NCBI RefSeq assembly: GCF_021290385.1
Contig: NZ_CP089928.1
Span: forward strand, 852,501 to 916,500
From: Microbulbifer sp. YPW16
GTDB lineage: Bacteria; Pseudomonadota; Gammaproteobacteria; Pseudomonadales; Cellvibrionaceae
Length of the DNA stretch: 64,000 bases
Direction of reading: 5' to 3'
Position 1 is the first letter of the stretch, and each line of letters starts with the position of its first letter. The position numbers were made by a program, and so were the translations under genes. Below are positions 32,832 through 51,744 of this stretch, piece by piece. The notes beneath the pieces were generated by a model. It ran no database searches, was not told the DNA's origin, and saw nothing but the letters and a program-made list of their open reading frames with translations.

Positions 32832-35800
32832 ATGACGCTCTCAGATCTCTTATTGAAAGCAAAACCAATGGTGGAGAGGAAACTGGAAGACCTCCCTGCC
32901 CCCTACATACTGTTTGTCTCGATTTGCGACGGGAAAGAGCGGGCCGTCACCCGCCATGTGAAAGGCGAAAGCATAACGGAGACATGGCAGGCTATTACCG
33001 CCGAGGCACGCAAGGCAACCAGGTCCGGCAAGCTCAAGCCCTGCTGGCTGCGCATGGATTGGGTCACCCGCGCCGACAAGATGAGCTGGGCAGGGCTGAA
33101 GGAAATACTCAGTGCCACCAAGCGATCTTACTTCCGCTATGGCATCGCCCTGGATGACGAATTTCGTTTTGCTTTCCTCGAACAGGAACTGAATGGCAAC
33201 GCCATGCTCTACGGTGGAAACCAGATTGGGCATGCCGTCGTCAATGAGAAGAACTTCAATGTGTACTGTCGAAAGCGGTATGGAAACAAGCTCATACCGG
33301 ATTTTTCGGATGAAAAAACAGTATATCGCTTGTGGACGGAAGGTCTCTTCTGTGATGAATCCGGCGCGCCCGAGTACCTTTATGGTCCCGGGAGAAACGC
33401 CGGCAGAAGGATCATCGACGACCTGGACGAAGCCACCACAACCAGACTGATCGAGACCAGCAGTAGCTACCTGGCAGGCCAGGTAAAGAAGAGTGGCCGT
33501 TTCGAATATGGCTGGCATGCATGCTTCGACAAACCAATCGGAACCTACAACACACTTCGACACGCAAGTAGTACGTATGCCATGACAGAGGCCTGGGAGG
33601 TAACCCGTGACAAGAATCTCCACTCCGCGATAGAGCGCTCCCTTGACTACCTCTCGAAAACGCTGATCAGGCGTGCTGCCTTGCCATCCGGGGAACAGGC
33701 AGCTTTCCTGGTTGAGGCCGATGGCGAGGTCAAGCTCGGAGGCAATGCCGTCTGCCTGCTGGCTTATGTTAAGTGGTGCGAGCTTACAGGAAACAACCAG
33801 TACCGTGAACTAATGGACCAGTTGGCACTGGGCATAGAGTTCATGCAGGACCGCGAGTCAGGGAAGTTCGTGCATGTTCTGCAGTTCCCTGAGTTATCAG
33901 TCAAGGAAGAGTTCCGCATCATCTATTATGACGGCGAGGCGGCATTTGGGCTCATGCGGCTTTACGGCCTGACCGGCGACGAGCGTTGGCTGAAGCTGGT
34001 CGAGAAGGCATTTGAATATTTTATCGCTGCCGACCACTGGCAGGCCCATGACCACTGGTTAAGTTATTGCGTCAATGAACTGACCCTCTATCGGCCGGAG
34101 GAAAAATACTACCGCTTTGGTATACAGAACGTAGAGGGCTACCTCGATTTTATCGAAAACCGTATCACCACCTTCCCGACCCTGCTGGAACTTATGATGG
34201 CGGCACAGAAGATGGTAACGAGGCTCTCGCAAGACGACAAATACCGCCACCTCCTGAAGCTGCTGGACCTGGAATGGTTCTACCGCGCGCTGCACAAAAG
34301 GGCAAACTACCTGCTCAACGGCTACTTCTGGCCAGAATTTGCCATGTTCTACAAGAACCCGGCAAAGATCCTGGGCAGCTTCTTTATCAGGCACCATGCA
34401 TTCCGTGTTCGTATTGACGATGTGGAGCACTACCTGTCCGGTTATGTCGCCTATCGCAATTACCTGCGGAAAGGAAAAGTCCAGGCGAGGCAAGAAGCCA
34501 CCATCGAAGAGGACCTGAAGCCCGCACCTCCCCCGGATGGGCGGCCGGTCGTAGCATGGGGCGGAGATGTAAACCTGTCCCGGCGCCAGCACTATCGCAC
34601 AGCAGAGCTGGGTCGAAAAGCTGTGCTCGGACGTATACCAGCTCTGAGAAATGCAGACCTGACCGTTATCAACCTTGAATGTGTGGTTGCGACCTGTGGT
34701 GAACAGGGGACACAGAAAGGCGAATTATCTCCCTATTATTACCGCGCCAGGCCCGAGATGCTGCGCCTGCTGGTGGAGTCCAGAGTGGATGTAGTGGCCA
34801 CCGCAAACAACCACAGCGGCGACTACGGCACTGATGCGTTGGTGGAGCAGTGTGAGTGGCTAGACAGGGTAGGCATTGCCCATGCCGGCTCAGGCCGCAA
34901 TCTCGACCAGGCCCTGGCACCCGTGATTCGCCGCGCGGGACAGCTGAATGTGGCAATTTTTTCCCTGGATGCCACACAGGAAGAGTTTGCGGCTACGGTA
35001 AACAGGCCCGGGAGCGCCTATCTTCCACTGGGAGAACCGGATGCCTGGACCAGCGTTCTAGAGCCGCGAATCCGCGCCGCGCGCCAACTGGCAGAAGTGG
35101 TGCTGGTCGCCGTGCATTGGGGTCCAAACCGGGAGCGTGCTCCAGGTAAAGCAGAACTCCTGACGGGGCACGCGATCATTGACGCCGGTGCCGACGCAGT
35201 GCTCGGAGCCAGCGCACATGTCCTTCAGGGAACAGAGATTTACCGGGGCAGGCCGATCATACATGACGCGGGCGACCTCCTGTTCGACTCGATCCGAAAC
35301 TCACTCGCGGACAGCGGTGTGTTCAGGTTGGCAATTAGCCACCGGGGGGTCGAACGCATAACGTTTGTCCCAGTCGGCTCTGGTTTTGGCTTCAGCCGGC
35401 AACTGAAAGATGGTAAAGCCATCGATGCTTGCAGGCGGTATGCCCGCCTTTCTGCACCGCTGGGCACAGCTTTCGTCCTGACAGAAAATGGTACTGCGAC
35501 ACTGGACCTGTCACCGCCAGAGCGAGAAGTAGCGCCACATATTCCCGTAGCGGCCACTACCACTTACCGGCTGGCCCCCCTGCAAGCCGCCACCGAAATC
35601 ACCAGGGATGAATGGCAGGTATCCTCGGTGCCGGAGGACGCCCGTGTTACACCACAATCCATAGGACCACTGAAGCTGGTTGGGATTCGCATCTGGCCTC
35701 GAGAGATCAAGTATCGGCAAATGCTGTGGGTGGAGTCTTTCTGGACCTGCGAAACTGAGCTCGATGAGGATCACCGAATAGACTTTCAAGCTGTCCCGGT

Positions 35801-51600: not shown

Positions 51601-51744
51601 CAGGTCACTGCCGTCCCTGGCGTATGAAACAATCTCGTCAGCGCCAAATGGCAGGCTGACAATCCCAATCGAAGATAGCGCCAGATCATTGAGTGGCGCC
51701 TCCCTGACCGACCCGGTTTCCCTGTCGTAAATTTTTCCAATCAT
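48682..51744 (-). CDS. Secreted poly(Asp-Ala)/(Asp-Ala-Asp-Gly) repeat protein with BapA-type N-terminus
   Basis: A 1020-residue, extremely acidic protein. Residues 1-95 resemble the prefix domain of BapA/LapF-type adhesins (YARDGSDLIIILESGEQVVI). About 97-127 is a hydrophobic Ala/Gly-rich segment and about 135-157 is Pro-rich. About 158-518 is nearly pure Asp-Ala with a few Ser/Thr near its start. About 519-600 is a linker with seven Cys and the motif CDINVNIDIDI twice, around GYRGLGNLGEF. About 600-632 is Asp-Ala again and about 632-910 is (Asp-Ala-Asp-Gly)n. The last 110 residues, starting QDIEVSLSDVIPM, are acidic and Ser/Gly-rich, as in type I secretion signals. No RTX nonapeptides are seen. 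It is probably exported by the adjacent secretion system and held at the surface. AGGTGA precedes the ATG. Confidence 0.88.
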   Translation of the reverse strand: MIGKIYDRETGSVREAPLNDLALSSIGIVSLPFGADEIVSYARDGSDLIIILESGEQVVIANFYQVDEDGEQSHLVLEGGEEPVMLAMLGGSGYPIAAAAAPAAATAGVSSWLIPGLVGLGAIAIALDDDDGRDGFSQTGNLTPSGRPIPPFSPPGPPPDSDADADSDADADADTDADADADADTDADADADADADADADADADADADADADADADADADADADADADADADADADADADADADADADADADADADADADADADADADADADADADADADADADADADADADADADADADADADADADADADADADADADADADADADADADADADADADADADADADADADADADADADADADADADADADADADADADADADADADADADADADADADADADADADADADADADADADADADADADADADADADADADADADADADADADADADADADADADADADADADADADADADADADADADADADADADADADADADADADADADADADADADCDINVNIDIDIDCDCDADADSDADADADSDADGYRGLGNLGEFCDPDCDIKDVDVDVDIEKDGCDINVNIDIDIECDADADSDADADADADADADADADADADADADADADADADGDADGDADGDADGDADGDADGDADGDADGDADGDADGDADGDADGDADGDADGDADGDADGDADGDADGDADGDADGDADGDADGDADGDADGDADGDADGDADGDADGDADGDADGDADGDADGDADGDADGDADGDADGDADGDADGDADGDADGDADGDADGDADGDADGDADGDADGDADGDADGDADGDADGDADGDADGDADGDADGDADGDADGDADGDADGDADGDADGDADGDADGDADGDADGDADGDADGDADGDADGDADGDQDIEVSLSDVIPMGDDEAAMSSDPGESSESGSGMSPDDEMGSGLDLDDLVSDSESGGDPLFSGADTDDDTAEGSASSGSGGGLQDGMDTTMHAQDTDPMQDMWQQNGADDV
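49015..49862 (-). repeat. 12-bp tandem repeats encoding Asp-Ala-Asp-Gly
   Basis: About 70 units of a 12-base repeat, all in frame. Longer units are layered on top: 49621-49740 and 49741-49860 are two 120-base copies differing at about four positions, and the first 60 bases of that unit also occur unchanged at 49141-49200. This points to recent segmental duplication. Confidence 0.93.
50190..51270 (-). repeat. 6-bp tandem repeats encoding Asp-Ala
   Basis: About 180 in-frame units of GAY-GCN, with mixed third positions (gac/gat, gcc/gcg). Only close to the protein's N-terminal side do a few Ser, Thr replace Ala. The long period-6 structure makes the opposite strand read as Ser-Ala/Ala-Asp-type repeats without stop codons. 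Confidence 0.93.

Follow-up and report, generated by a model that had tools for sequence, protein, structure and literature searches.

A candidate modification system for Asp-dipeptide adhesins, with an unnamed domain and exchangeable partner enzymes, in Microbulbifer and other bacteria

The DNA studied here (the window) comprises 64,000 nucleotides of the genome of Microbulbifer sp. YPW16, a single contig of 4.19 Mb; coordinates are positions in the window, and relatives are cited as numbered loci (L) and genomes (G). Between 32832 and 51744 it carries a cassette of nine proteins which, judging from sequence comparisons, is likely to be a modification system for Asp-dipeptide adhesins. With a probability that we place at roughly 0.55, this locus would couple small amines to the Asp side chains of a BapA-type repeat adhesin by means of a Mur domain. 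An earlier prediction made on this stretch (the original prediction) had proposed a search for the same combination in other genomes. The combination indeed recurs, both in Microbulbifer and across phyla, and this co-occurrence makes a ribosome-made Asp backbone served by dedicated ligases the best reading of the locus.

Asp-Ala proteins are already known one by one. BapA of Paracoccus is described with 891 Asp-Ala repeats and as required for biofilm (PMC5588039), Listeria Lmo1799 with 226 Ala-Asp repeats (PMC8687577), and SdrI with mixed repeats (PMC4850167). Searches of the open-licence PubMed Central literature listed no report of a Mur or ATP-grasp ligase tied to Asp-repeat adhesins; the newness of the system depends on the proposed chemistry.

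The cassette and its repeat protein

Eight of the nine proteins are encoded on the minus strand, in the order listed from 51744, and the ninth, a fusion protein with an unnamed N-terminal domain (NTD), is encoded convergently on the plus strand:

48682..51744, minus strand: BapA-type Asp-dipeptide repeat adhesin, 1020 aa (PF22783 BapA_N at residues 4-84, 61.2 bits, cut-off 27)
50188..51189, minus strand: (Asp-Ala)167 block, residues 186-519 (334 codons, 7 distinct hexamers, zero replacements)
49021..49848, minus strand: (Asp-Ala-Asp-Gly) block, residues 633-908 (repeat reading of the coding frame)
47108..48589, minus strand: TolC-type outer membrane channel (TIGR01844, 251.8 bits, cut-off 225.15)
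44916..47111, minus strand: type I secretion ABC permease/ATPase, LssB type (TIGR03375, 803.1 bits, cut-off 693.1)
43654..44919, minus strand: HlyD periplasmic adaptor (TIGR01843, 334.8 bits, cut-off 208.65)
42692..43618, minus strand: transglutaminase-like protein (PF01841 Transglut_core, 68.1 bits, cut-off 23; N-terminal hydrophobic segment read by eye)
40700..42673, minus strand: CphA-like ATP-grasp, degenerate ATP-grasp half and acylphosphatase, copy 2 (family scans, alignments)
38328..40307, minus strand: CphA-like ATP-grasp and acylphosphatase, copy 1 (family scans; 54% identical to copy 2)
37618..38298, minus strand: 2-oxoglutarate/Fe(II) (2OG-Fe(II)) oxygenase, 2OG-FeII_Oxy_5/TIGR02466 family, accessory (family scans)
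32832..37586, plus strand: NTD-CapA-MID-MurF fusion, 1584 aa (open reading frame list, family scans)
32832..34541, plus strand: NTD, unnamed domain, residues 1-570 (~560), probable (alpha/alpha)6 barrel
34551..35288, plus strand: CapA (PGA_cap) domain (PF09587, 195 bits, cut-off 27)
36315..37517, plus strand: MurF-like ligase domain, aligned to E. coli MurF (1gg4) starting at 1gg4 residue 49

The repeat protein, exporter, transglutaminase-like protein, two ATP-grasp proteins, oxygenase and CapA-MurF fusion named by the original prediction all lie where it had placed them, in agreement with the family scans. The fusion indeed has CapA and MurF-like parts, but its residues 1-560, which had been overlooked, form a separate domain, the NTD. 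All named domains of the cassette exceed their Pfam cut-offs; the ATP-grasp models overlap, with some (RimK, Dala_Dala_lig_C and ATP-grasp_3) above cut-off and some below. The type I secretion system is complete, its LssB-type ABC protein, HlyD and TolC each exceeding the NCBIfam cut-off, and the cassette holds no polymer exporter besides it. A BapA_N domain and an LssB-type exporter within the same locus place the repeat protein among the BapA-type, type I-secreted adhesins. The cassette is not of the Sdr/SRR glycosylation type: a Pfam scan found no glycosyltransferase among its nine proteins, and the adhesin has no Ser/Thr acceptor repeats, its Ser and Thr residues being merely scattered.

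The predicted Asp-repeat protein of 1020 residues is genuine, and contains 398 Asp, 293 Ala and 111 Gly, for a net charge of -409. Downstream of the BapA_N domain it carries the blocks (DA)167 and (DGDA)68. Both Asp codons and all four Ala codons are used in the former, so that third bases vary with the amino acids unchanged, and the (DADG) block is written in 9 hexamers. Because 334 pure Asp-Ala codons use 7 hexamers without replacement, the repeat frame is a real coding sequence, and it is under selection. The longest block of pure Asp-Ala varies between relatives, from 9 pairs (a second small protein, L007) to 369 (L008; L009 is cut by its contig end). Of the 9 proteins with a visible repeat region, 7 contain Asp-Ile/Asp-Val inserts, and 9 of the 10 with a visible C-terminus end in D-P-x-x-x-(L/M)-W-x-x-x-G, both read by eye. 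Repeat length thus drifts with the two-residue rule preserved. A modified BapA-type adhesin is a more apt description of the product than the free surface polymer originally envisaged.

A MurF-like domain and CphA-like ATP-grasp proteins

Enzymes of the Mur and ATP-grasp families form amides from carboxylates that they activate with ATP. In the fusion, Mur_ligase_M and Mur_ligase_C both score above cut-off, and alignment to 1gg4 shows the three blocks of the Mur ligase superfamily to be retained, namely the P-loop TGTAGKST, the VIEV acidic ligand block and the DDSWNA block. The MurF profile TIGR01143 gives this part 216-220 bits (positions 35-407), below its cut-off of 288.6, and a true murF is encoded elsewhere in the genome (411.6 bits). 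In E. coli MurF the initial 48 residues are part of the UDP-substrate domain, and the window's Mur domain shows no match to them. This missing start and the separate murF suggest that the window's Mur domain likely does not serve peptidoglycan.

The two ATP-grasp proteins are homologous to the G domain of CphA1 (NF010623, 220.8 and 251 bits, best stretch from position 203; 120-127 bits for the ATP-grasp domain against 7lg5/7wac), and their D287, E303 and N305 are invariant in 24 of 24 sequences. The full CphA profile TIGR02068 (N-G-M order), with its cut-off of 850, gives 194.8 bits at the best place genome-wide, and the highest-scoring protein of the cassette reaches 239.8 bits. The original prediction had missed a second, degenerate ATP-grasp half that precedes the acylphosphatase (second CphA-profile match from position 393), as well as the reach of the system far beyond one genome. 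In CphA1, changing H267 is described as inactivating the G domain (PMC9262961); at this position, counted by eye in the alignment, copy 1 has His and copy 2 Tyr.

Single proteins uniting NTD-CapA-Mur with ATP-grasp and acylphosphatase (P0154 and P0176, confirmed; P0158, by its listed domains) argue that these enzymes cooperate. Among other fusions, a protein of L070 (11429-13804) combines CapA, acylphosphatase and a TupA-like ATP-grasp, adjoining an exporter and an NTD. An Agrobacterium protein of 1660 aa (L175, 11938-16917) combines an NTD with a YheCD ATP-grasp and two additional ATP-grasp domains, and its repeat neighbour is a BapA protein with 249 Asp-Ala pairs. At L167 and L175, the ATP-grasp fused to the NTD gives low-scoring matches to tubulin-tyrosine ligase (TTL). 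In the genome of L078 two modules adjoin, one with CapA-Mur and NTD, the other with transglutaminase, ATP-grasp and NTD-CapA-Mur. The CapA domain has a weak NCBIfam match to MslH, for which CapA-named PDB chains were also found; MslH, a CapA relative, is a lasso-peptide epimerase, and this analogy hints at a possible role of CapA in editing stereochemistry.

The same enzymes could be read otherwise, as builders of a distinct poly-amino-acid made without the ribosome (poly-gamma-glutamate or teichuronopeptide-like), with the repeat protein serving only as its anchor or as a co-displayed adhesin. PGA_cap is indeed a capsule-synthesis family, the L070 protein joins a TupA-like ATP-grasp to CapA and acylphosphatase, and the ATP-grasp domain of CphA1 is described as making a non-ribosomal backbone (PMC9262961). 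However, neither CapB nor CapC appears among the family-scan matches listed for the nine cassette proteins, which sets the cassette apart from a CapBCA locus, and its sole exporter is the type I system. Moreover, the Asp-X repeat gene persists where the NTD partner is a glycosyltransferase or is missing. A separate polymer is therefore considered unlikely, if the least unlikely of the alternatives to ligation onto the adhesin.

Conservation in Microbulbifer and across phyla

A contig scan queried with the ATP-grasp family, and thus selecting loci for that component, returned 11 loci, 8 of them in Microbulbifer. All eight show the order exporter, ATP-grasp, convergent NTD-CapA-Mur, with two ATP-grasp copies in two loci and one in six. 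The repeat region is visible in seven, L006 showing only the end of the repeat protein. The oxygenase is missing in three of the eight, so it was rejected as a core component, and the transglutaminase in one. Among the named matches listed, the full-length ATP-grasp-acylphosphatase family comes only from Microbulbifer.

The NTD was found in 36 of 48 genomes of the genus. BapA_N exceeds its cut-off in 28 of the 48, all of which carry the NTD, and in none of the 12 NTD-less genomes, two of which have weaker matches without Asp-X runs (Fisher p 1.8e-6, uncorrected for kinship). Asp-X runs were counted from at least 12 pairs, and as near when on the same contig within ~20 kb of the NTD. Such a run lies near the NTD in 22 of the 36 genomes, and in 4 others it is elsewhere or on a different contig; BapA_N is seen only at a contig edge in 2, the adhesin slot is masked (read as N) in 2 that were set aside (G284, L082; G305, L090), and 6 have no run. 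In four of these six the NTD stands alone, with exporter and repeat gene both unseen on the stretch, as if left behind. Sub-cut-off BapA_N matches in G297, G309 and G282 come with no Asp-X run of at least 8 pairs on the fetched stretches. As a control, 20 Microbulbifer stretches of 20 kb were hand-picked away from the NTD (one, L116, contains 1,320 N); none reaches even 8 consecutive pairs, so a run near the NTD is not a matter of chance.

Confinement to Microbulbifer was rejected, since NTD-Mur occurs beyond the genus. The NTD is present in 54 of 72,556 plasmid records, 19 of which were fetched (L016 and L181, and L019 and L058, are duplicates counted once), and an Asp-X run lies on the stretch at 17 of the 19 loci. 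Asp-Ala hosts are Agrobacterium, Rhizobium, Sulfitobacter, Nitratireductor, three staphylococcal plasmids, Listeria and Enterococcus; Asp-Ser hosts are K. aerogenes, S. epidermidis (two records, one of them SdrF) and one S. aureus plasmid. The two loci without a run are a Variovorax record and A. baumannii, where an adhesin has only 8 Asp-X pairs. Among 398 evenly sampled phylum genomes, 14 carry the NTD, two of them Microbulbifer; the other 12 provide 14 NTD loci, the three of G684 being counted as three. Five of these 14 have Asp-X runs: two Asp-Ala, two Asp-Ser (one interrupted by N) and one Asp-Gly. Across phyla, the NTD and Asp-X runs are thus strongly but not universally linked. The Asp-Gly run (L169, 5787-8957; 88 pairs), a third repeat type, adjoins a stand-alone NTD.

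The unnamed domain

No Pfam or NCBIfam model matches the window's NTD (residues 1-570) above cut-off. Below cut-off it resembles GH88, GH76, GH127, C5-epimerase and LanM (a weak NCBIfam match in 9 of 68 NTD members), and the NTD A3 profile weakly matches cellobiose 2-epimerase 5zhb (E 1.1e-4). These matches together point to an (alpha/alpha)6 barrel as the probable fold.

The domain was aligned in 19 sequences from Proteobacteria, Listeria, Enterococcus and Staphylococcus, the others being 31-64% identical to the window's NTD. In this alignment 58 columns are invariant, many of them Arg, His, Asp, Glu, Tyr or Trp (R243, H244, R362, R376, H408, R525, R527 and H533 are among the invariant residues), and they are the same whether the domain stands alone or is fused, so they look like one conserved active or binding site. 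The family comprises 1,638 proteins with E at or below 1e-10 among 7,995 candidates scored.

Exchange of partners and type of repeat

NTD partners, fused or adjacent, are a Mur ligase, CapA, CapA-Mur, a YheCD-type or CphA-like ATP-grasp, or a glycosyltransferase (GT4; a genuine GT4 is fused to the NTD in Klebsiella). Those besides CapA are mostly group-transfer enzymes. The best 36-row NTD tree requires 15 changes of the partner label ('none' being one state), against a shuffled mean of 19.5. Taken singly, the glycosyltransferase label requires two changes and the ATP-grasp label three; several branches are long and their placement is unsure.

The kind of partner appears to vary with the kind of repeat. 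A matching glycosyltransferase was found in four of six Asp-Ser loci (L022, L023, L164 by Pfam, L180 by annotation), and the glycosyltransferase queries matched none of the 15 Asp-Ala loci outside Microbulbifer (p 0.0025 for glycosyltransferase against repeat type, with relatives not independent). Of the 15 Asp-Ala loci 11 have an amide ligase, as do 2 of the 6 Asp-Ser loci (p 0.15). The sole reactive side chain of an Asp-Ala tract is the Asp carboxylate, which fits amide-ligase partners. One Microbulbifer locus, L093, has Asp-Ser repeats with CapA and without Mur.

The glycosyltransferase partners at these four Asp-Ser loci would also suit an NTD acting as a carbohydrate enzyme, an epimerase or hydrolase barrel in line with its weak similarity to GH88, GH76, GH127, C5-epimerase and cellobiose 2-epimerase. 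The final modification would then be a glycan or a change in the envelope, and the ligases would serve sugar or peptidoglycan chemistry instead of Asp side chains. Asp-Ala repeats, however, offer no hydroxyl for O-glycans, and it is at Asp-Ala loci that the glycosyltransferase queries matched nothing. Barrels of the LanM type, to which the NTD is also weakly similar, act on peptides as well. We hold this explanation to be improbable, and less probable than a separate polymer.

The repeats might also be an unmodified acidic, calcium-binding spacer, with enzyme genes that are neighbours having other targets. Long acidic stalks are common in adhesins. Paracoccus biofilm is described as calcium-stimulated and as needing the Asp-Ala protein (PMC5588039). 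Yet a chance neighbourhood is hard to sustain given linkage over Gram-negative and Gram-positive hosts with partner swapping, and a bare spacer is the least probable of the explanations considered.

Proposed mechanism and its weak points

Coupling of amines to the adhesin, the reading preferred here, takes CphA1 as its precedent, where the Mur-like domain is described as adding Arg to the Asp side chain, the ATP-grasp domain as adding Asp to the main chain, and the N domain as holding the polymer (PMC9262961). Side-chain coupling was thus assigned first to the Mur enzyme, and the ATP-grasp as main side-chain enzyme was rejected. The NTD would bind the acidic repeat or act on it, since it keeps the same invariant polar residues alone or fused to varied enzymes. 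The MurF-like domain would then phosphorylate each Asp beta-carboxylate with ATP and join an amine to it, as the CphA1 Mur-like domain does with Arg. ATP-grasp proteins may add to or extend the attached group, with their acylphosphatase domains discarding stalled acyl-phosphates, and CapA, the oxygenase and the transglutaminase-like protein may edit or trim, none of them being essential to the scheme. Coupling would take place in the cytosol, and the unfolded chain would exit by the type I system to form a partly neutralised polyaspartamide brush on the surface.

More broadly, and only tentatively, at slightly less than even odds, the system could be a gene-templated cousin of cyanophycin. Poly(Asp-X) of set length would be held by the NTD and decorated residue by residue by exchangeable ligases (Mur/ATP-grasp for Asp-Ala, glycosyltransferase for Asp-Ser), and such chains would be widespread in marine, plant-associated, staphylococcal and listerial adhesins.

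Several observations weigh against these proposals. CphA-like ATP-grasp was found on the fetched stretches of only 17 of the 36 NTD-bearing Microbulbifer genomes, and thus is not a constant part. In the ligation by ATP-grasp and Mur-type enzymes together that was first predicted, the Mur half fits the CphA1 precedent, and the ATP-grasp half, whose CphA1 counterpart extends the main chain, is the weaker one. The shared component is the NTD, with CapA, ATP-grasp, oxygenase and transglutaminase optional. Four Asp-Ala loci with an NTD (Listeria, both Enterococcus, one Rhizobium; L020, L021, L024, L179) have no match to Mur, CapA or ATP-grasp on the fetched stretch, so an independent function has to be assumed for the NTD. 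Conversely, Mur occurs with Asp-Ser repeats at L160, L178 and, in Microbulbifer, L095; the acceptor rule is therefore not strict, and a rule equating Asp-Ala with Mur was rejected. The glycosyltransferase search used three query proteins, all from glycosyltransferase loci, so that other kinds could be missed, and an Asp-Ala locus of Sulfitobacter (L015) has an annotated glycosyltransferase ~12 kb from the NTD, unmatched by these queries. Kinship-corrected pairing leaves five independent pairs, one or two agreeing for glycosyltransferase and none opposed, too few for significance. An Asp-X run is unseen in 9 of the 14 phylum-sample loci, although in at least three of these (L158, L167, L170) the contig stops close to where the run would be expected. 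The NTD barrel resembles carbohydrate enzymes. Finally, Paracoccus BapA runs on gels well above its mass and its authors could not exclude modification, which favours the scheme, but this position may simply reflect composition, their first explanation (PMC5588039).

Comparison with known systems

CphA1 shares with the cassette a homologous ATP-grasp, a Mur-type ligase and an Asp backbone, and has its own separate polymer-binding N domain according to its account (PMC9262961). Here, in contrast, a gene encodes the backbone, in which Asp alternates with Ala/Gly, separate proteins carry ATP-grasp and Mur, the Mur domain is MurF-like, and no protein of the genome reaches the CphA cut-off. In staphylococcal adhesins, SdgB and then SdgA are described as glycosylating Ser-Asp repeats, and these dedicated enzymes likewise adjoin a dipeptide-repeat surface protein (PMC3794999). 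Glycosyltransferases similarly replace Mur at the four Asp-Ser NTD loci; the cassette differs in having amide ligases at Ser-free repeats, and the NTD is not named in the available text on SdgA/SdgB (PMC3794999). No ligase is mentioned in the available text on BapA-BapBCD of Paracoccus denitrificans (PMC5588039). The CapBCA poly-gamma-glutamate synthase shares the CapA domain; unlike it, the cassette has a MurF-like Mur part, CapC was not found, and the predicted acceptor is a protein.

Tubulin-tyrosine-ligase-like and RimK ligases also perform ATP-grasp amide ligation on acidic proteins, with a different target and fold context, and the system is not assigned to them.

If the proposed chemistry is correct, Mur ligases gain a second life as protein-modifying enzymes, amidation of protein side chains by a Mur ligase being new chemistry, and cyanophycin-type chemistry can be gene-written. 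Many Asp-dipeptide adhesins thought to be bare acidic stalks would bear a hidden coat, changing the view of their charge, calcium binding, stickiness and recognition by antibodies. A sequence-defined polyaspartamide would become available for materials, and the large unnamed NTD family would gain a testable role.

Other NTD genes

Database names among the NTD matches listed are hypothetical protein, Mur ligase, glycoside hydrolase and a glucosyltransferase. The last of these, 'poly(glycerol-phosphate) alpha-glucosyltransferase', was rejected as the identity of the NTD, as no model supports it on NTDs scanned alone; it sits on NTD proteins of ~540-550 aa, too short for an additional glycosyltransferase domain. 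The NTD also occurs in 8 of 50,697 phage records; the four Listeria records listed (among H95-H99) are 3-16 kb long and could be host sequence entered under phage. At L071, L072, L074 and L075, where exporter and repeat gene are both unseen on the fetched stretch, lone NTD genes have an old-yellow-enzyme and an esterase as neighbours, and are likely to be leftovers or to reflect a second role of the NTD.

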